Below are positions 991-51,310 of a stretch of DNA of 64,000 nucleotides, in pieces. Each line of letters starts with the position of its first letter. The stretch's first letter is position 1. The stretch covers positions 124,001 to 188,000 of the forward strand of contig DATATI010000083.1 in NCBI GenBank assembly GCA_036268875.1, given 5' to 3'. This DNA is from Polyangia bacterium. GTDB taxonomy: Bacteria; Myxococcota_A; Polyangia; Fen-1088. The notes under the pieces are model-generated. The model made no database searches and was not told the DNA's origin. It saw only the letters and a program-made list of their open reading frames with translations. The position numbers were made by a program, and so were the translations under genes.

Positions 991-3090
991 CTAGGCGGCC
1001 GCCCGTCCTTGCACGGACGTCGGCGTTCCCAAATCGATGGTCGCCACCGGCTCGACGGACGTGCCGGGGACCAGCTCGCGCGCCGTCACCACCGACAGGT
1101 CGGGGACAAAGCGCGAGGCGAAATCGAACAGCGGCCGCCGCAGATCGGGCGGCGCGATGATCACGGTGGGCTGGCCGTCGGCGGCAAAGCGCGCCGCCCG
1201 CGTCTCCAGCAGGTTGACCAGCTTGCGCGCCGTATCGATGTCCGGCGCCAGCGTCGCCTCGCCGTCGCTTTGCCCCAGGGTGCGGCGCAGGGCATCCTCG
1301 GTGGCGCGATCCAGCGTCATCGCCCGCACCACGCCGGCGGCGTCGGCGACCTTGGCGGTGATCTGGCGGAACAATCGCCTGCGCACCTGCTCGACCAGGA
1401 ACGAGGTGTCTTTGCTGCGCGGCGCTCCGTCGGCGACCGCCTCCAAGATCGAGCGCAGGTCGCGCACTGAAAGACCTTCACGCAAAACCCCGCGCATCAC
1501 GCGCACGAACTCGCCCAGGGTCACCGTGCCGGGGATGACGTCCTCGACCAGCTTGGGCGCTTCCTTGCCGACGTTGGCGATGAGCTCCTGCACCTCCTGG
1601 CGACCGACCAGCTCGTGCACGTTGCGGCGGATCAATTCAGAAAGGTGCGTGGTCATCACCGACGCCGGATCAACCACGGTCATCCCCGCGCCTTCCGCCC
1701 GTGCTCGATCAGTCGGGGTGATCCACAGCGCGGCCAGGCCGAACGCCGGCTCCTTGCCCGTCAAGCCTTCCAGGCCCGGAACATTGGGCGCGCCACCCGA
1801 CGGATCCAGCACCATCACCCGATCGCTGTAGGCCATGCCCTTGCCGACGTCGATGCCGCGCATGCGCACCCGGTACTCGTTCGGCTCCAGGCGCAGGTTG
1901 TCGCGCAGGTGCACCGGCGGCAGCACCACGCCGAGGTCGGTGGCGATCTGGCGGCGCAGGTTGGTCACCCGGCCGGGCAGCTCGCCGCCCTTGTCGAGAT
2001 CGATCAGGCGCAGCAGCGCGTGGCCGACCTCCAGCTCGATGGCGTCGACGGTGAGCAGATCTTGCATCCGCTCCTGCGGAGGCGGCGCCTTGGCGGCCTC
2101 GGCGGCGGCCTCGGCGGCGCGCTTGGCGGCCGCGGCCGGGCGGCCCCGAAAACGCGACAGCATGAACGCGCCCAGGGCGAACACGCCGAACGGCACCGTC
2201 GGCATGCCCGGCACGATGGCCAGCGCGCCCAGCACGATGGCCGCGTACTGCAGCGTGCGCGCCTTGCCGAACACCTGGCCGCCCATCTCGAGGCCAAGGA
2301 ACTGACCCGAACCGGCCCGGGTGACCACGATGCCGGCCGCGGTGCTGACCAGCAGCGACGGCATCTGCGAGACCAGGCCGTCGCCGATGGTGAGGATGGT
2401 GAACGATTCGACCGCCGTCTGCAGCGACATGTGATCGCGCACCAGGCCGGCCAGCAAACCACCGACGATGTTGATCGCCGTGATGACCAGGCCGGCGACG
2501 GCGTCGCCGCGCACGAACTTGCTGGCACCGTCCATGGCGCCGAAAAATTCAATCTCGCGTTCAAGCGCGTGCCGGCGGGTGCGCGCCGTCTTCTCGTCGA
2601 TGAGGCCGGCGGCCAGCTCGGCGTCGATGGACATCTGCTTGCCGGGCAAGGCGTCCAAGGTGAAGCGGGCCGCCACCTCGGCGATGCGGTTCGAACCGCG
2701 GGTGATGACGGTGAAGTTCACCGCCAGCAAGATCAGAAAGATGACCGCGCCGACGATCAGGCTGCCGCCGATGGCGAAGCGCCCGAAGGTTTCGATGACG
2801 TCGCCCGCCGCCGCCGCGCCCTCCCCGCCTTTGAGCAGGATCAAACGCGTGGTGGCCACGTTCAGGCCCAGACGAAACAAGGTGGTGATCAGCAGCAGCG
2901 ACGGGAAGACGCTGAAGTCCAGCGGCTTTTCCAGGCTCAACGCCACCAGCAGGATCAACACCGACACGCCGATGTTCAGCGCCAGCAGGATGTCCAGGAC
3001 CAGCGGCGGCAGCGGCAGGACCAAGATCGCCAGCACGCTGAGGACGGTGATCGCCAGCAGGCCTTGCCCGGTATTTTTCTCCGTCGGCAT
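991..3090 (-). CDS. flhA: FlhA, flagellar type III export gate protein
   Basis: 699-residue FHIPEP-family protein, the usual size for FlhA. The N-terminal half has the closely packed membrane helices of the proton-driven export gate, starting with the LAITVLSVLAILVLPLPPLVLD segment. It contains the conserved FRLGLNVATTRLIL and the cytoplasmic-loop stretch ending in MDGASKFVRGDA. The C-terminal half is the cytosolic ring that docks substrate-chaperone complexes. The ATG at 3090 shares one base with the flhB stop (TAATG arrangement), so the two are translationally coupled. A second, divergent member of the family is at 49376-51310. Confidence 0.98.
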   Translation of the reverse strand: MPTEKNTGQGLLAITVLSVLAILVLPLPPLVLDILLALNIGVSVLILLVALSLEKPLDFSVFPSLLLITTLFRLGLNVATTRLILLKGGEGAAAAGDVIETFGRFAIGGSLIVGAVIFLILLAVNFTVITRGSNRIAEVAARFTLDALPGKQMSIDAELAAGLIDEKTARTRRHALEREIEFFGAMDGASKFVRGDAVAGLVITAINIVGGLLAGLVRDHMSLQTAVESFTILTIGDGLVSQMPSLLVSTAAGIVVTRAGSGQFLGLEMGGQVFGKARTLQYAAIVLGALAIVPGMPTVPFGVFALGAFMLSRFRGRPAAAAKRAAEAAAEAAKAPPPQERMQDLLTVDAIELEVGHALLRLIDLDKGGELPGRVTNLRRQIATDLGVVLPPVHLRDNLRLEPNEYRVRMRGIDVGKGMAYSDRVMVLDPSGGAPNVPGLEGLTGKEPAFGLAALWITPTDRARAEGAGMTVVDPASVMTTHLSELIRRNVHELVGRQEVQELIANVGKEAPKLVEDVIPGTVTLGEFVRVMRGVLREGLSVRDLRSILEAVADGAPRSKDTSFLVEQVRRRLFRQITAKVADAAGVVRAMTLDRATEDALRRTLGQSDGEATLAPDIDTARKLVNLLETRAARFAADGQPTVIIAPPDLRRPLFDFASRFVPDLSVVTARELVPGTSVEPVATIDLGTPTSVQGRAAA

Positions 3091-4169
3091 TAACGCGCTC
3101 CCGCGGCGGCCGGCTGGCGGTGGGTGATGCGGTAGACATAGGCCAGGATGGCGGCCACCGCTTTGTAGGTTTCGGCCGGCACCGAACGCCCGACCTTCAC
3201 GCGCTTGTAAAGCAAGCGAGCCAGCGGGATGTTCTCCACGATGGGGATGCCATTTTCGCGGGCCAGCTCGCGCATCATCTCGGCGATCTCGCCCTTGCCC
3301 TTGGCGGTCACGCGCGGCGCCTTGTCCTCGCTGGCGCGATAACGGATGGCGATGGCGATGTGGGTGGGGTTGACCACCAGCGCGTCGGCGCGCGGCACCT
3401 CGGCGCGGGCGATGTTGCGGATGAGCTCGCGCAGCTTGCGGCGCCGGCGGCCGCGCGTGGAGGTGTCGCCTTCGTCCTCCTTGGCGTCGCGCTTGGCCTC
3501 CGCTTTCGTCATCTTCATCTCTTTGGCGTACCGCCAGCGGGTAATTGCAATGTCCACGCCGGCCCAGATGGCCAGCACTGTCAGAACCTTGACCGCGCTG
3601 GCACAGAGCGGGCCGAACAGATGGGCGAATTGCACGTCGGACCGCGCCAGCAGCAGCGTCGGCAGCGTCATGAACTCGTCACGCATCGACGACCACACCG
3701 CCCAGCCCACTGTCACCAGCTTGACAACCGAGATGCCCATATCCGCCCACAGCTGCTTGCTGAACAGCCGGCCGATCTTTCCGCCGCCCAGCGTGAACAC
3801 CCGCCCGATGTCCGGCAGCGCGCGTTCCAGCCAGATCTCACCTTTGGTCTGAAACAAATACACCGCCACGCCCGCCCCGCCCGCCGCCGCGCACGCCGAC
3901 AGCGCCAGGCCCAGCGGCCGCGCCAGCATCGGCTGCAGCTGGCTCATCACCGGCGTCGTCGTCGACAGTCCTTCGCCCGCCGAAGCCACCAGACGAATCA
4001 ACGAATCGCGCAGCGCCGGGCCGACGCTCATCAAGGCCAGCGTGCCGGCGGCGAAACCCGCCACGGCGTTGATCTCCTTGCCGATGGGGATCTGGCCTTT
4101 GCCGCGGGCTTCATTGCTGCGCCTCGCACTGGGCGACTCTGTCCTGTCCTCTGCGGGCTCGCCTGCCAT
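3090..4169 (-). CDS. flhB: FlhB, export switch protein with NPTH autocleavage site
   Basis: 359-residue inner-membrane protein of the flagellar export gate that switches specificity from rod/hook to filament substrates. The start is ATG 4169 (MAGEPAED), eight bases after the fliR stop; the longer open frame upstream is the shadow of fliR. Four hydrophobic segments are followed by a charged linker (KAEAKRDAKEDEGD) and the cytosolic domain. The autocleavage motif NPTH lies at about residues 267-270, as in well-studied FlhB proteins, followed by RYRASEDKAPRVTAKG. Together with the giant FliK at 17467-20370 it should control hook length. Confidence 0.97.
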   Translation of the reverse strand: MAGEPAEDRTESPSARRSNEARGKGQIPIGKEINAVAGFAAGTLALMSVGPALRDSLIRLVASAGEGLSTTTPVMSQLQPMLARPLGLALSACAAAGGAGVAVYLFQTKGEIWLERALPDIGRVFTLGGGKIGRLFSKQLWADMGISVVKLVTVGWAVWSSMRDEFMTLPTLLLARSDVQFAHLFGPLCASAVKVLTVLAIWAGVDIAITRWRYAKEMKMTKAEAKRDAKEDEGDTSTRGRRRRKLRELIRNIARAEVPRADALVVNPTHIAIAIRYRASEDKAPRVTAKGKGEIAEMMRELARENGIPIVENIPLARLLYKRVKVGRSVPAETYKAVAAILAYVYRITHRQPAAAGAR

Positions 4170-9806: not shown

Positions 9807-10787
9807 ATGGCTGCAGACCCTGGTTCACGATCAGCTCTCTCCAACGCCGCCACCACCAGCGGGCGCGCGACGACGGGAAACATGAACGTGACAGGCGCCC
9901 GATCCACGCAGACGATCTCGATCGCCCAGACCGCGCCCCTGCGCATCGACCATCTGGCCGACAACATCTTCAACGACACCAAAGCTCTGCGCCGCTCGCT
10001 GCCGGAGGTGGCCGCCGAAGCGCTGGAGCTGTGCAGCCGATCCAGCGCCGACGCCAACGCCATGGAGCGAACGCTGGCCCGCGATCCGTTCATCAGCGCC
10101 CAGGTCATCTCGATCGCCAACTCGGCGCTGTTCGCACCCAAGATGCCGATCCTGGGCGTGCGCGACGCCGTCGTGCGCATTGGCCTCGATGCTCTACGCG
10201 ACGTGGTGCTGATGGTGGTGACCAACTCGACGATGTTCCGCGTGCGCGGTTTCGAAGGGCGCGTGGAGAACATCCGTCGCGGCATGCTGGCCTCGGCGTC
10301 CGCCGCGCGCCAATTGGCCAAGGCCATGCGGGTCGAGTCCGAGTACGGATTTCTGGCCGGCCTGCTCCACAACATCGGCGAGCTGGTGCTGCTCGAGCGC
10401 TGCGTGCACGAAGGCATCGTCACGCCGCAGCTGCTGGACGATCCCACCGAAGGCCAGGTCCTGCGCGATCGCATCCATTTCCACCACACGCGCGTCGGCG
10501 CCGCCTTGTGCCGCGCCTGGAAGCTTCCCGCCGGCGTCACCGAAGCCGCCGAGTTCCACCACGACTACAGCGCCGGCGGCAAACGCCGTTTCGCCGCGCA
10601 GTTGATCGCCGCCGCCGACGCCATCGGCGAATTCTGCATGCCCGGCTCGCAATCGGTCGAGCCCACCACCGTGCCCGCGGTGCAGGAATTGAAGCTTCCC
10701 GCCGAACAGATCAAGAGCATCAGCGCCTCCGTCAAAAGCGAGCTGCCCGGTCTGTTCGCCACCGGATCGACCGCGCAGCCGCGCTGA
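9807..10787 (+). CDS. HDOD-domain signalling protein
   Basis: 326 residues; the HDOD domain covers roughly 50-280. The family resembles HD phosphohydrolases but usually lacks the full metal-binding set and acts as a signalling scaffold. Visible marks are LARDPFISAQVISIANSALF, a helix with GLLHNIGELVLLE, and the histidine pairs HFHHTRVG and FHHDY. It is the only plus-strand gene within the flagellar island and is divergent from fliL, with operator-like palindromes between them. ATG 9807 is used; ATG 9882 is a reasonable alternative because neither has a strong ribosome-binding site. Confidence 0.85.
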   Translation: MAADPGSRSALSNAATTSGRATTGNMNVTGARSTQTISIAQTAPLRIDHLADNIFNDTKALRRSLPEVAAEALELCSRSSADANAMERTLARDPFISAQVISIANSALFAPKMPILGVRDAVVRIGLDALRDVVLMVVTNSTMFRVRGFEGRVENIRRGMLASASAARQLAKAMRVESEYGFLAGLLHNIGELVLLERCVHEGIVTPQLLDDPTEGQVLRDRIHFHHTRVGAALCRAWKLPAGVTEAAEFHHDYSAGGKRRFAAQLIAAADAIGEFCMPGSQSVEPTTVPAVQELKLPAEQIKSISASVKSELPGLFATGSTAQPR

Positions 10788-10829: not shown

Positions 10830-11036
10830 GGGGTGGGGTTTGGCCTGGCGGGGGACGGGGTTCTTACGCGGCCGCGGCGGTGTTGGTTCTGGCAGTAACG
10901 AATCAGTCTGCCAACGACGACTTTCTTTTCACCTTCAACCAGCGGCCGCACGGGAACCCCTCGATCCTCGGCTGGCAACCGGCCGCTGCGCGGCCGGAGC
11001 GCCTCCTCACGCCCCCGCCAGTCCAAACCCCACCCC
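10830..11036. repeat. 207-bp imperfect palindrome downstream of HDOD gene
   Basis: The 25-base outer arms at 10830-10854 and 11012-11036 pair with one mismatch (GGGGTGGGGTTTGG followed by CTGGCGGGGG). Further in, both arms share GGGGTTC and GCGGCCGC. The right arm holds an extra insertion of about 50 bases that includes its own hairpin at 10979-10997. It may act as a transcription barrier between the convergent genes or be a decayed MITE-like element. Confidence 0.75.
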
Positions 11037-11069
11037 GCTGCGCTCCGCCTTAACCCACGATTGAACCGG

Positions 11070-11091
11070 AGATCCGGATCAGATCCGGATC
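11070..11091. repeat. Tandem 11-bp repeat AGATCCGGATC
   Basis: Two exact head-to-tail copies of AGATCCGGATC, each containing the perfect 10-bp palindrome GATCCGGATC. They lie between the two large palindromes. The role is unknown; a paired protein-binding site is possible. Confidence 0.6.
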
Positions 11092-11126
11092 CGTTTCGAT
11101 ACTCACGTTGGGTGCTCTTGTTGCGA

Positions 11127-11310
11127 GCCGGCGCAGCGTGGGCGGGTGGCGCGGAGTGGAGGGGACCCAGCGGGTTGGTTCGTCGGGCCTCGTCCCTCGG
11201 CGCTATAAATTCATTGGTCGCTTGGTCTGGGCTCTCGCACGCCGGCCCGACGAGCCAACCCGCTGGGAAGGCGTCCACGCAGCGAAAGGATCCGCCCACG
11301 CGTAGCCGGC
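11127..11310. repeat. 184-bp imperfect palindrome next to dprE2-like gene
   Basis: Outer arms 11127-11145 and 11292-11310 match at 16 of 19 positions (GCCGGC...GCGTGGGCGG). Inner arms 11166-11189 and 11244-11267 match at 23 of 24 (CCCAGCGGGTTGG...CGTCGGGCC). The centre is AT-richer (CTATAAATTCATTGG). It ends 15 bases before the dprE2-like stop codon. Its length matches the other two palindromes in the window, although the sequences differ. Confidence 0.78.
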
Positions 11311-11325
11311 GCACGCCACAGGATT

Positions 11326-12099
11326 CTAAAATCCAATTCGCCGCATCACCAACCGCGGCAGCGCCCGAATCACCAGCATCACCAGCGCCCACATTCCAGG
11401 CGCATACAGCACCGGTTTGCCGCGATCGATTGCCTTCACCACCTGCGCCGCCACGCCCTCCGCCGTGCCGGCGAACGGCGGCGGCTTGAGTCCCTCGGTC
11501 ATGCCGGTCTTGACGAAGCCCGGCTTCACACAGACCGTGCGCAGCCCGGCGGCGCGGAATTTGTGGTCCAGGCCTTCCAGGTAATGCGTCAGGCCGGCCT
11601 TGGCCGCGCCGTACAGGATGACCGGCTTGCGCCCACGCTCGCCCGCCACCGAACTGAAAACGCACAGCGTGCCTCCGCCCCGCGCCAAAAGACGCACCCG
11701 CGCCTCTTCGCAGAAGACCACGGTGTTGGCGAAATCGACGGTCAGCAGGCGGCGGCAGAGCGCGCGATCGTTCTCCAGGCGATCCTGCGTGGCAAACAGG
11801 CCGGCGGTGATGACGACGGTGTCGAACCCGCCCAGCTCCGCGTCCGCTTCGTCCAGCGCGCGCCCGAAGCCGTCGGGATTTTCCAGATCGCAGACCGCGA
11901 ACCCCACCCGCGCCGGTTCCGCCTGACCGGTGGCGCGCCCGGCCGCGGTCGCGCCGGCGCGCGCCCGTAGATCGCCGGCGCTGCGCTGCAGATCGTTGCC
12001 GTCGCGGCCCAGCAGGAAAAGGCGATCCCCGCGCGCCACCAGCTGCCGGGCCAGGGCGCGGCCGATCCCTTTCGTCGCGCCCAGGAAGACCGCCTTCAC
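11326..12099 (-). CDS. dprE2: DprE2-like short-chain dehydrogenase
   Basis: 257-residue SDR protein. Translation most likely starts at GTG 12099, overlapping the upstream stop as GTGA. The NAD-binding GATKGIG is at about residues 7-13, with FSSVAGERG and the catalytic YGAAKAG further on. The C-terminal end (YAPGMWALVMLVIRALPRLVMRRI) closely resembles mycobacterial DprE2, the keto-reductase of the decaprenylphosphoryl-arabinose pathway. Coupling to a DprE1-like oxidase supports a two-step 2'-epimerisation of a lipid-linked sugar. Whether the substrate is ribose is inference; no arabinosyltransferase gene is visible. Confidence 0.85.
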   Translation of the reverse strand: MKAVFLGATKGIGRALARQLVARGDRLFLLGRDGNDLQRSAGDLRARAGATAAGRATGQAEPARVGFAVCDLENPDGFGRALDEADAELGGFDTVVITAGLFATQDRLENDRALCRRLLTVDFANTVVFCEEARVRLLARGGGTLCVFSSVAGERGRKPVILYGAAKAGLTHYLEGLDHKFRAAGLRTVCVKPGFVKTGMTEGLKPPPFAGTAEGVAAQVVKAIDRGKPVLYAPGMWALVMLVIRALPRLVMRRIGF

Positions 12100-13430
12100 G
12101 GCTTGTCCCCGAAAAGCCGCACGGATTGAGCGCTGCGCAGTTTTCCTTCCGGATCCCACTTGCGCCGGATGGCCAGCCATTCGTCCAGGCGCGGCTCCAT
12201 GGCGCGAAAGTGTTCGGGCCGGGTGAAGGCGTCTTTCGTCAGGTAGATGCGCCCGCCTTCTTTGATCACCTGTTCGTTCAGCGCGTCGATCAGCTCTTGC
12301 GTGTCGTCGCGGACCGCGATGTCCAGGGCGATGGAGATCCCCGGCTTGGGAAATGACAGCAGGCCCAGTCCTTCAGGCCCGCAGTCCTTGATCACGCAGA
12401 GAAACGAAGCCCCGCCGTGCGCCACCAACACCTCGAGAAAACGCCGGGCCGCGCCCCGTCCCGCCGATTCGGGCAAGACGCACTGGTGCTGGGTCATGCC
12501 GCGCTTGCCGTAGATGCGGTTCCAGTTGCGCAGGGCATCCAGCGGGTAGAAGTACGTCTCCGGGTGAACGATGCCGCGTTGGTGGCGCCGCAGGTGTCGC
12601 CAGTACAGCACCGGATTCATCAGCTTCACGGACAGCCGGCCCATCGCGAACGGAGGCAAATTGAACGGCACCGAAAAACGGCCCTTGGGGCGCGGTGGGT
12701 GAGCCGGCGCCTCCGACGGTTCGGCCCAGCGGCCTTTGAACAGCGTTCCGCGTCCGAGGCGCTTGCCGCCCGACGTGCAATCGATCCATCCGACGGTCAT
12801 CGGCCAGCGCGGGCCCGCCTCCTTCAAGCCGTGGATGAACTGATCGATGTCGCTGATCCGTTCGCTCTCCCCGTAGATCCACGGCGACGGCACCCGGGCC
12901 AGGCGAAAGCCGACCTCCAGAATGTGGCCGGTGAGGCCCATGCCGCCCAGCGTGGCCCGGAACAGATCGCGCTCCACCGTCGGAGAACAGGTCAGCACGC
13001 GCCCATCGGCGACCCGCAACGTCAGGCTGGTGACGTGGGCACCGAAGCAGCCTTCGCGGTGGTGGTTCTTGCCGTGAATGTCGGCCGCCACCATCCCGCC
13101 CAGGGTCACGTACTGCGTACCGGGCGTGACCGGGGTGAAGAATCCCTGCGGCAAAAACACCCGATAAAGATCGCGCAGCGACAGGCCCGCCTCGGCGCGG
13201 ATGTCACCCGTCTGCGGATCAAACGACAGGATACGGTCGGCCAGCGTGCTGCTGACCACCTCGGCGTCACCGGGCGCCGGCAACGACGAATCACCGTACG
13301 AACGCCCAAGGCCGCGCGACAGCGGATGGCCGACGGTCACCCGCGCCAGATCCTCGGACCGCACCTCGTGTCCGGGAACCACGGGCGAGCGCCCCCATCC
13401 GGAGAGCGTCGGTGTCGCTGAGCCGTTCAC
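12096..13430 (-). CDS. dprE1: DprE1-like FAD-dependent oxidase
   Basis: 444 residues, close to the DprE1 length. The FAD_binding_4 domain has SRGLGRSYGD (about 38-47), the flavin-site DIHGKNHH and LGGMGLTG; the C-terminal half has FYPLDALRNWNRIYG, LSFPKPG and YLTKDAF with the conserved lysine. It would oxidise the 2'-hydroxyl of a polyprenyl-phosphosugar before reduction by the overlapping SDR. The residue aligning with the benzothiazinone-reactive cysteine of mycobacterial DprE1 appears to be alanine (SIALDIAV). The start is GTG 13430, only 42 bases after motB, so it may be co-transcribed with the stator genes. Confidence 0.88.
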   Translation of the reverse strand: MNGSATPTLSGWGRSPVVPGHEVRSEDLARVTVGHPLSRGLGRSYGDSSLPAPGDAEVVSSTLADRILSFDPQTGDIRAEAGLSLRDLYRVFLPQGFFTPVTPGTQYVTLGGMVAADIHGKNHHREGCFGAHVTSLTLRVADGRVLTCSPTVERDLFRATLGGMGLTGHILEVGFRLARVPSPWIYGESERISDIDQFIHGLKEAGPRWPMTVGWIDCTSGGKRLGRGTLFKGRWAEPSEAPAHPPRPKGRFSVPFNLPPFAMGRLSVKLMNPVLYWRHLRRHQRGIVHPETYFYPLDALRNWNRIYGKRGMTQHQCVLPESAGRGAARRFLEVLVAHGGASFLCVIKDCGPEGLGLLSFPKPGISIALDIAVRDDTQELIDALNEQVIKEGGRIYLTKDAFTRPEHFRAMEPRLDEWLAIRRKWDPEGKLRSAQSVRLFGDKP

Positions 13431-13472: not shown

Positions 13473-14237
13473 CTACGGCTGCTCGCCGCTTGGCACCAGC
13501 GTCACCACCATCTCGATGCGGCGGTTGGCCTCGCGCCCGGCGGCGTCGGCGTTCGAAGCGATCGGCCGCGTCGACCCGTAGCCGGCCGCCCCCAGCAGCT
13601 TGCCGTCCATGTGGTGCGCGCCCTGGATGTACGCCGCCACCGCGGCGGCGCGCGACGTGGACAGCTCCCAGTTGTCGCGAAAGCGCCCGCCCGCGCGCGT
13701 ATCGTCGGTGTGCCCTTCCACGCGCAGGGGCAGGCCCAGGCCGACCAGCTCGTCAGCGATCACGTCCAGGACCGGGATCATCTCGGGGCGCAGCGCCGCC
13801 TGCGACGGATCGAAGAAGTGCGACGCCGAGATGCGCACCGTCAGGTGATCGTGTTCGATGTCCACCTGCACGGCGGCCTTCTCCGGGCGCAGCTGCAGAT
13901 ACCGGCTGAGGCGCTTGTCGATGCGCTTGCGCAGCGCCTCGGCGACGGCGCGCTGGCGGGTCTTGGGCACGTCGTTGACGCCGCCCCGGGTCTCCTTGCA
14001 CTTGCCGCCCTCGGTGGGCGGCCCTTCGAAGATGGGCATCTTGTCGATGCCGCCCGTGCCCTGAAAGTGCAGCGCGAACTTGATCGACTGCGCCACCGTG
14101 GCCATGCGCTTGTTGTCGACGCGGCTGATCGAATACATGACGACGAAGAACGCGAACAGCAGCGTGATGAAGTCCGCGTAGGACACCAGCCACCGCTCGT
14201 GGTTCTCGTGCTCTTCTTCGTGCTTCTTTTTCGCCAT
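13473..14237 (-). CDS. motB: MotB, flagellar stator protein with OmpA-like domain
   Basis: 254 residues. A charged N-terminus (MAKKKHEEEHENHERW) leads into one membrane helix with the proton-carrying aspartate in SYADFITLLFAFFVVMYSISR (Asp about 22). The C-terminal OmpA-like domain (about 135-245) has VEGHTDDTRAGGRFRDNWELSTSRA, which binds peptidoglycan. It lies 27 bases after motA. A MotE-type helper is encoded at 20367-21143. Confidence 0.96.
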   Translation of the reverse strand: MAKKKHEEEHENHERWLVSYADFITLLFAFFVVMYSISRVDNKRMATVAQSIKFALHFQGTGGIDKMPIFEGPPTEGGKCKETRGGVNDVPKTRQRAVAEALRKRIDKRLSRYLQLRPEKAAVQVDIEHDHLTVRISASHFFDPSQAALRPEMIPVLDVIADELVGLGLPLRVEGHTDDTRAGGRFRDNWELSTSRAAAVAAYIQGAHHMDGKLLGAAGYGSTRPIASNADAAGREANRRIEMVVTLVPSGEQP

Positions 14238-49375: not shown

Positions 49376-51310
49376 GTGCGATCGCTGGCGGGACGGTACG
49401 GAGATCTCGCGCTGGCCGCGCTGGTGGTCGGCATCGTCGGCATGATGATCCTGCCGCTGCCGACGGCGCTCATCGATCTGCTGCTGTCCACCAATGTCGC
49501 GGTGGCGGTGACGCTGTTGCTGACGTCGCTGTACGTCACTGACGCGCTCAAGATCGCCACCTTCCCTACCCTGTTGCTGCTGACCACGCTGTTTCGGCTG
49601 GCGCTGGAGGTGTCGGCCACGCGCCTCATCTTGACTCGCGGCAACGCCGGCCAGGTCATCGCCGCCTTCGGACACTTCGTGGTGGGCGGCAACCTGGTGG
49701 TGGGCGCGGTGATCTTCCTCATCCTCACGCTGATCCAGTTCATCGTCATCACCAAAGGCGCCGAGCGCATCGCCGAGGTGGCCGCGCGTTTCACCCTGGA
49801 CGCCATGCCCGGCAAACAGCTTGGCATCGACGCCGAGCTGCGCGCCGGCCACATCGACGCCACGGAAGCGCAACGCCGCCGAGCGGCCCTGGGCCGCGAA
49901 TCGCAGCTTTTCGGATCGATGGACGGCGCCATGAAGTTCGTCAAAGGCGACGCCATCGCCGGCGTGGCGATCCTGGCGGTGAACATCGTGGGCGGTTTGG
50001 TCGTCGGAATTTTCCAGCGCGGCCTGGACGCCGGCGCGGCCGCGCGCACGTACACGCTGCTGACCATCGGCGCCGGACTGGTGGCGCAGATCCCGGCGCT
50101 GTTGATCTCGACCGCCGCCGGGATCGTGGTGACGCGGGTGGCGTCAGAGGACGGCCCGTCGCACCTGGGCCAGGACATCGCGCGCGAGCTGTCGGCGAAT
50201 CCCAAGGCCATCGCCATCGCGGCGGTGCTGCTGGGGTTGCTGGCCGTCGTCCCCGGGTTGCCGGCGTTGCCGTTCTTGGGACTGGCTGTGTTACTGGGCG
50301 CGGGCGCGCTGCGCCTGCAGCGGCGAGCGGCGGTGCGCGACGGTAATGGCACCGACGGAGAAAGCGCCGATGCGGGCGCGCGCCGCGCCGGCCTGCCGGG
50401 CGAGCTGGCGACGCCGCTGGCCATCGACGCCGCGCCGGCGCTGGCGCGAACGTTGGGCGCCGCCGACCGGGCGTTCTTGGCCCGGGAAGTTCCCACGCTG
50501 CGCCGGCGGCTGTTCGACGACGCCGGCCTGGTCATGCCGGCGGTGATCGTCCGGCCGCGCCCGCTGGCCGAGCGATCGTTCGTCATCCGCCTGAACGACA
50601 CGCCGCTGCTCCGTGGCCAGGTGCCGGTCGACCGCGACGGCGACGACGAAAGCGCCCACGTGATCGGCGAGCATCTTTGGGCGCTGCTGCGGCGTTACGG
50701 CCACGAGCTCGTCGGCATTCAAGAGACCCAGTCGCTGCTGGACGACGTGCAGCGCTCGCACCCGGCGCTGGTCCGCGAGGTGGTGCCGAAGATGGTGACG
50801 CCCGCGCTGCTGGCCGAGGTGCTGCGGCGATTGGCCCAGGAAGGCGTCTCGCTGCGCGGGCTGCGCGAGATGTTGGGTGCGCTGGCTGATCGCCAACCCG
50901 GCGCCGGCAACGCCGATGCCGCCGCCCTGACCGAACAGGTGCGGGCGGCGCTTCGGCGCACCATCACCTTCCAGCATGCCGACGGCGACGGTCGCATCAG
51001 CGCGCTGCTTCTGGATCCGCTGATCGAAGACACCATTCGCGACGCCATCCATCGCACGCCGACCGGCAACCATCTGGCCCTCGAGCCGCAACTGGCGCGC
51101 GACATTCAGGCGGCCATCGGACGCGCCGCCAGCGCCGCTCGCCAGGACGATGGCAACGGAGCGGTGGCGCCCGTGCTGCTGACGAATCCGGCCATCCGAC
51201 CCTTCGTGCGAAGGCTGATCGAACAGCAGGAGCCGGCGCTGGCGGTCCTGTCGTTTCTTGAGCTGGCGCCCGAAGCCGAGGTGCGCACGCTGGGCCACGT
51301 CCGGGTTTGA
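49376..51310 (+). CDS. Orphan SctV/FlhA-like type III export-gate protein
   Basis: 644 residues from GTG 49376, FHIPEP family, closer to SctV of injectisomes than to the FlhA at 991-3090 by eye. The membrane part has LPLPTALIDLLLSTNVAVAVTLLLTSLYV, FPTLLLLTTLFRLALEVSATRLIL and RESQLFGSMDGAMKFVKGDAIAGVAILAVNIVGGLVVGIFQRG. The cytosolic half (about 345-640) keeps the ring-forming domain (GHELVGIQETQSLLDDVQRSHPALVREVVPKMVTPALLAEVLRRLAQEGVSLRGLREMLGALAD). No other type III secretion genes surround it; neighbours are a DoxX protein and lipoproteins. Confidence 0.9.
   Translation: MRSLAGRYGDLALAALVVGIVGMMILPLPTALIDLLLSTNVAVAVTLLLTSLYVTDALKIATFPTLLLLTTLFRLALEVSATRLILTRGNAGQVIAAFGHFVVGGNLVVGAVIFLILTLIQFIVITKGAERIAEVAARFTLDAMPGKQLGIDAELRAGHIDATEAQRRRAALGRESQLFGSMDGAMKFVKGDAIAGVAILAVNIVGGLVVGIFQRGLDAGAAARTYTLLTIGAGLVAQIPALLISTAAGIVVTRVASEDGPSHLGQDIARELSANPKAIAIAAVLLGLLAVVPGLPALPFLGLAVLLGAGALRLQRRAAVRDGNGTDGESADAGARRAGLPGELATPLAIDAAPALARTLGAADRAFLAREVPTLRRRLFDDAGLVMPAVIVRPRPLAERSFVIRLNDTPLLRGQVPVDRDGDDESAHVIGEHLWALLRRYGHELVGIQETQSLLDDVQRSHPALVREVVPKMVTPALLAEVLRRLAQEGVSLRGLREMLGALADRQPGAGNADAAALTEQVRAALRRTITFQHADGDGRISALLLDPLIEDTIRDAIHRTPTGNHLALEPQLARDIQAAIGRAASAARQDDGNGAVAPVLLTNPAIRPFVRRLIEQQEPALAVLSFLELAPEAEVRTLGHVRV

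Follow-up and report, generated by a model that had tools for sequence, protein, structure and literature searches.

Two overlapping genes in the 64,000-nucleotide stretch of Polyangia DNA analysed here (henceforth the window) probably encode a polyprenyl-phosphoryl-ribose 2'-epimerase, which on sequence grounds is predicted to make a D-arabinofuranose donor. D-arabinofuranose is usually viewed as a sugar of the actinobacterial wall. The pair itself fits a known kind of pathway, and what is new here is only the subfamily to which it belongs and the host range of that subfamily.

The dprE1-like gene (12096..13430, minus strand) starts with GTG, encodes a 444-residue protein (E1) and begins 42 nt past the stop of motB at 13473, on the same strand; both the reading frame and the spacing are as the initial annotation had given them. 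The top NCBIfam match of E1 was the DprE1 family NF053785 (365.8 bits, E 3.9e-109; next family 52.3 bits), and its top PDB match was the solved DprE1 of Mycobacterium tuberculosis (Mtb; E 7.5e-76, covering residues 8-432). The 365.8 bits fall short of the 500-bit equivalog cut-off of NF053785, which was also missed by three homologues that we scanned (354.0, 472.5 and 270.4 bits for L036, L050 and L053, respectively). A FAD_binding_4 domain was found in E1 (60.8 bits, over a cut-off of 26.4), and a search of the whole genome for the ALO domain gave no match. The dprE2-like gene (11326..12099, minus strand; GTG start) encodes a 257-residue SDR reductase (E2), and the two reading frames have the 4 nt GTGA in common. 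E2 matched the DprE2 family NF053786 with 142.3 bits, under its 250-bit equivalog cut-off, and was scored higher by the SDR model PRK07102 (198.2 bits, also below its own cut-off of 267); its top PDB match was Mtb DprE2 (E 4.3e-23), which we take to be Rv3791. The initial annotation had described the pair as closely matching mycobacterial DprE1 and DprE2: the type of the pair is right, but the match is not close, with identities of 34% (143/421) to Mtb DprE1 and 27% (56/205) to part of Mtb DprE2 and both proteins below the NCBIfam cut-offs.

To compare individual residues, we used an E1 alignment of 94 rows, made up of the window protein, 55 rows more than 50% identical to it (together the 56 subfamily rows), 37 other homologues and Mtb DprE1. 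The rows were matches of at least 400 aa picked by similarity to the window protein and its relatives, with three exact duplicates taken out, and Mtb was the sole actinobacterium. Window E1 has every residue of what we take to be the DprE1 active-site set, i.e., Y60, H132, K134, Q334, Q336, K367 and K418 (Mtb numbering throughout). Y60, H132, Q334, K367, D389 and K418 did not vary at all (56/56 subfamily and 37/37 other rows), and K134 and Q336 were present in 54 of the 56 subfamily rows and in all 37 others. Position 385, an Asn in Mtb, was Ser or Thr in all 93 non-Mtb rows. The catalytic lysine is thus kept (Mtb Lys418 aligns with window Lys399), as is the FAD-binding domain, and E1 is most likely a DprE1-type FAD oxidase with its catalytic residues intact, predicted to oxidise polyprenyl-phosphoryl-ribose. 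In E2, Ser150, Tyr163 and Lys167 are present and were retained in all 49 subfamily rows.

The initial annotation also held that the cysteine targeted by benzothiazinones is replaced by alanine in this protein and likened the change to natural resistance. The substitution is correct (Mtb Cys387 aligns with window Ala368); its reading as resistance-linked is not. According to the available part of PMC3206020, the cysteine is highly conserved among actinobacterial DprE1 orthologues, and Ala or Ser at this position underlies the natural benzothiazinone resistance of M. avium and M. aurum. In our alignment, Ala occupied position 387 in 54 of the 56 subfamily rows and 32 of the 37 other homologues, while Cys was seen in two subfamily rows and in none of the others. 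Since Ala is what the non-actinobacterial rows of this alignment usually have here, we rejected the notion of a special, resistance-like change.

An epimerase of this kind would need a lipid-linked ribose, and the UbiA-like decaprenyl-phosphate phosphoribosyltransferase (DPPR synthase) whose presence the initial annotation had proposed to check is indeed encoded in the genome, on a separate contig from the pair. We found four UbiA-family genes (PF01040) and scanned two of them, on contigs C29 and C7, against NCBIfam. The C29 gene (G000:C29:190477-191403; 309 aa) was identified as a DPPR synthase by NF008977 (271.7 bits vs. a cut-off of 234), by NF008978 (243.9 bits vs. 207) and by its PDB match to 8j8j (E 5.9e-48); the NCBIfam scan did not identify the C7 gene as one. 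Using as query an SMR-type protein encoded beside the synthase in family f8, we located a homologue beside the window genome's own synthase (E 1.4e-5): a gene for a 114-residue SMR-type small transporter (L065:9459-9803, minus strand; PF00893, 32.4 bits over 23.7) that ends 54 nt before the synthase start. Such SMR homologues adjoin the synthase in five relatives' loci as well (L076, L077, L078, L080 and L090); in the other 19 of the 25 synthase loci L068-L092, none was seen. At L090 a MATE-family transporter gene (2524-3852) also lies near the synthase. A profile search of the genome for Emb-type arabinosyltransferases (PF04602), the other component that had been proposed for checking, returned no matches; PF13231 gave eight, seven of them over the cut-off and none tied to the arabinose pathway, and a multi-pass protein adjoining the synthase at L072 had a weak match in the window genome (E 1.4e-4). 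Elsewhere in the genome we noted a second DprE2/PRK07102-like SDR gene (L067 4555-5304, on contig G000:C91); it is transcribed divergently from rpiB and has nearby a GT2 glycosyltransferase gene and genes that we take to be fliD and fliS.

In the pathway that we propose, the UbiA-family synthase on C29 would make the ribose lipid from PRPP, E1 would oxidise C2' of polyprenyl-phosphoryl-beta-D-ribofuranose, and E2 would reduce the keto intermediate to the opposite configuration, yielding polyprenyl-phosphoryl-D-arabinofuranose. The SMR-type protein encoded just upstream of the synthase is a candidate flippase for this product, and a GT-C enzyme may then attach D-Araf to a glycan of the envelope or to a glycoprotein. 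Beyond homology, conserved residues and gene context, the substrate, the product, the flippase and the acceptor are predictions.

We then asked how widely the pair is distributed. Among 59 genomes of relatives, 15 contained a subfamily E1 (at least about 60% identity; the copy in G003 is in two pieces), and in six others the DprE1-like match was more remote (G021, G030, G042, G050, G054 and, split in two, G001); the raw search tally of 39 takes in weak matches to other FAD oxidases. A synthase-like match was found in 55 of the 59 (only partial in G008, G036 and G044), most of them without DprE1. All 15 relatives with a subfamily E1 also have such a match, a co-occurrence that is uninformative given how common such matches are with or without DprE1 (55/59). 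We additionally studied named DprE1 loci, taking the best 80 matches listed (of at least 80), which comprised 48 subfamily loci (L093-L139 and L143; L106, L107 and L117 duplicate relatives' loci L039, L044 and L041) and 32 others. E2 adjoined E1 in 39 of the 48 subfamily loci among these matches; four without it were contig ends (L120, L130, L138 and L139), and at five (L121, L131 from Paraliomyxa miuraensis, L133, L135 and L137) E2 was not found beside E1 in the sequence available. P. miuraensis is cultivable, as is an Archangium isolate that has the pair. In the relatives, E2 adjoined E1 in all 13 loci with a full-length E1 (in L047 on the opposite strand). The synthase adjoined the pair in five of the 48 subfamily loci among the matches listed (L103, L117, L122, L125 and L143), on the pair's strand in all except L117, and lay within the locus in 22 of the 32 other DprE1 loci listed. 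When neighbours of subfamily loci were clustered, no gene apart from E2 recurred in more than seven loci; the synthase came next, with seven, and the remaining neighbours occurred in at most six loci each, mostly of close relatives.

In the E1 tree, the 56 subfamily rows form one side of a branch with 100/100 support and a length of 0.6. They come from Myxococcota, Acidobacteriota, Planctomycetota and Binatota, and phylum labels are scattered across the tree (six changes for Myxococcota, seven for Acidobacteriota), which may reflect transfer, paralogy or mis-binned contigs; Mtb DprE1 sits on a long branch of unsure placement. The subfamily is well supported and apparently uncharacterised. Our literature search, which left most subscription papers outside its reach, found no report on a DprE1 subfamily of these four phyla; in the available parts of two of the papers retrieved, DprE1 is named only in the title of a cited work (PMC12826051) or mentioned only as a mycobacterial target (PMC10412643).

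The position of the pair within the window could also be explained by flagellar glycosylation, i.e., co-transcription with motB and the supply of arabinose to flagellin or another flagellar component. Specifically, motB (13473..14237, minus strand; MotB_plug and OmpA domains) ends only 42 nt before dprE1 on the same strand, and an HDOD-domain gene (9807..10787, plus strand) that is convergent with dprE2 forms a flank common to two members of the same family, G003 and G008. The order fli-HDOD-dprE2-dprE1 was found only in these two and the window genome: G003 has the same fliPONML-HDOD-dprE2-dprE1 arrangement (with dprE1 split over two contigs) and G008 keeps dprE1-dprE2-HDOD-fliLMNOP. However, motB is a neighbour by position only, as in G003 it lies about 1.3 kb beyond the other half of dprE1, and in G008 a histidine kinase gene takes its place upstream of dprE1, motB lying on a different contig. 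G002, which is flagellated, has the pair on a separate contig, away from the flagellar genes, and neighbour clustering detected no flagellar genes among those that recur around other subfamily loci. Across the 18 genomes of family f1 (several only 70-90% complete), the pair and flagellar-type motB were unassociated (Fisher p = 1): four had both, two had the pair only (G007 and G011), seven had motB and no subfamily E1 (G005, G006, G010, G013, G014, G016 and G017) and five had neither. On co-occurrence and synteny we rejected flagellar function as the main reading and consider it highly unlikely; the link is positional and the placement of the pair beside flagellar genes looks accidental. Of the glycosylated flagellar or envelope polymer suggested by the initial annotation, the flagellar half is thus not borne out, and an envelope or appendage glycan may still be the acceptor.

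Alternatively, the pair may have diverged from DprE1/DprE2 to epimerise some other lipid-linked sugar, be it a pentofuranose or a hexofuranose. The separate, well-supported subfamily (100/100, stem of 0.6), the residue at 385 unlike that of Mtb and, among the matches listed, the rarer synthase linkage (5/48 vs. 22/32 in other DprE1 loci) all point in this direction. Yet Ser or Thr at 385 is also found in the other DprE1 rows, mostly beside a DPPR synthase, the remaining pocket positions are conserved, and a same-strand synthase adjoins the pair in four of the subfamily loci listed, so that we regard another sugar as unlikely. A chance juxtaposition of an unrelated FAD oxidase and SDR acting on soluble substrates might be entertained given that both superfamilies are large and the E2 model scores are generic. 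The gap between the 365.8 bits that E1 scores for DprE1 and the 52.3 bits of its second-best family, the overlap of the two genes in the window and their adjacency across phyla make this explanation extremely improbable. The preferred reading is thus an epimerase that would make a D-arabinofuranose donor.

The gap between the convergent dprE2 and HDOD-domain genes had been described as palindromic, and it does contain a palindrome, which turns out to belong to a dispersed repeat (11012..11320). Just past the dprE2 stop, 24-nt inverted arms (11166-11189 and 11244-11267) that are 96% complementary form a terminator-like hairpin; none of 200 mononucleotide shuffles of the gap gave such arms, and the repeat folds better than shuffled sequence (z -4.2). 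A 136-bp region has four full-length copies in the genome (its own at 100%, the others at 89-90%) plus fragments, and pairwise alignments lengthen the repeat to about 230-310 bp. Three of the four copies lie between convergent genes and have one end at most about 22 nt from a stop codon (according to simple ORF calls), a pattern from which the copy on contig C59 departs. An Rfam scan of the window gave no match. The repeat is likely a terminator or REP-like element, and we saw no tie between it and arabinose. Also in the window, at 49376-51310 (plus strand), is a FHIPEP-family (FlhA/SctV-type) gene of 644 aa, additional to the ORF at 991-3090, which we take to be flhA-like, and possibly part of a second export apparatus.

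Considering the subfamily as a whole, its coherence and the donor synthase found in almost every relative studied suggest that lipid-linked pentofuranose glycosylation is common in these mostly uncultured Gram-negative phyla; the synthase-like genes in 55 of 59 genomes, mostly without DprE1, likewise hint at widespread ribofuranose lipid donors. A more tentative proposal, which we hold to be somewhat short of an even bet, is that the shared Myxococcota, Acidobacteriota, Planctomycetota and Binatota subfamily makes a donor of D-arabinofuranose or another pentofuranose for an envelope glycan, fed by a polyprenyl-phosphoribose synthase that is near-universal in this class and may have a further role in ribosylation in genomes without the epimerase.

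The window pair resembles Mtb DprE1 (named as Rv3790 in the available part of PMC3206020) and DprE2 in being a two-enzyme oxidase/reductase pair with the catalytic residues, accompanied in the genome by a DPPR synthase and a gene for an SMR-type putative exporter, Rv3789 being an exporter of the SMR family (PMC11127046, available part). It differs in its identity of only 34% and 27%, in Ala at 387 and Ser (Asn in Mtb) at 385, and in that no Emb-type arabinosyltransferase (PF04602) was found in this genome. The available part of PMC11127046 describes Gram-negative systems of a polyprenyl phosphoribose synthase, a flippase and a GT-C enzyme (e.g., for Citrobacter O antigens), joined by DprE1/E2 homologues in those whose glycan has Araf; undecaprenyl-P-Araf has been proposed there as the donor for pilin arabinosylation in Pseudomonas pili. 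Compared with those three-component pentofuranose systems, as far as that part of the source describes them, the window genome shares the polyprenyl phosphoribose synthase, an epimerase step expected before export and the Gram-negative setting, but has its genes split between loci. Finally, other non-actinobacterial DprE1 proteins (from, e.g., Methylobacterium and Planctomycetaceae; L140-L172 except L143) have the same catalytic residues and mostly Ala at 387, whereas they are about 40-45% identical to the window protein, fall outside its branch and, among the matches listed, usually have the synthase within the locus.
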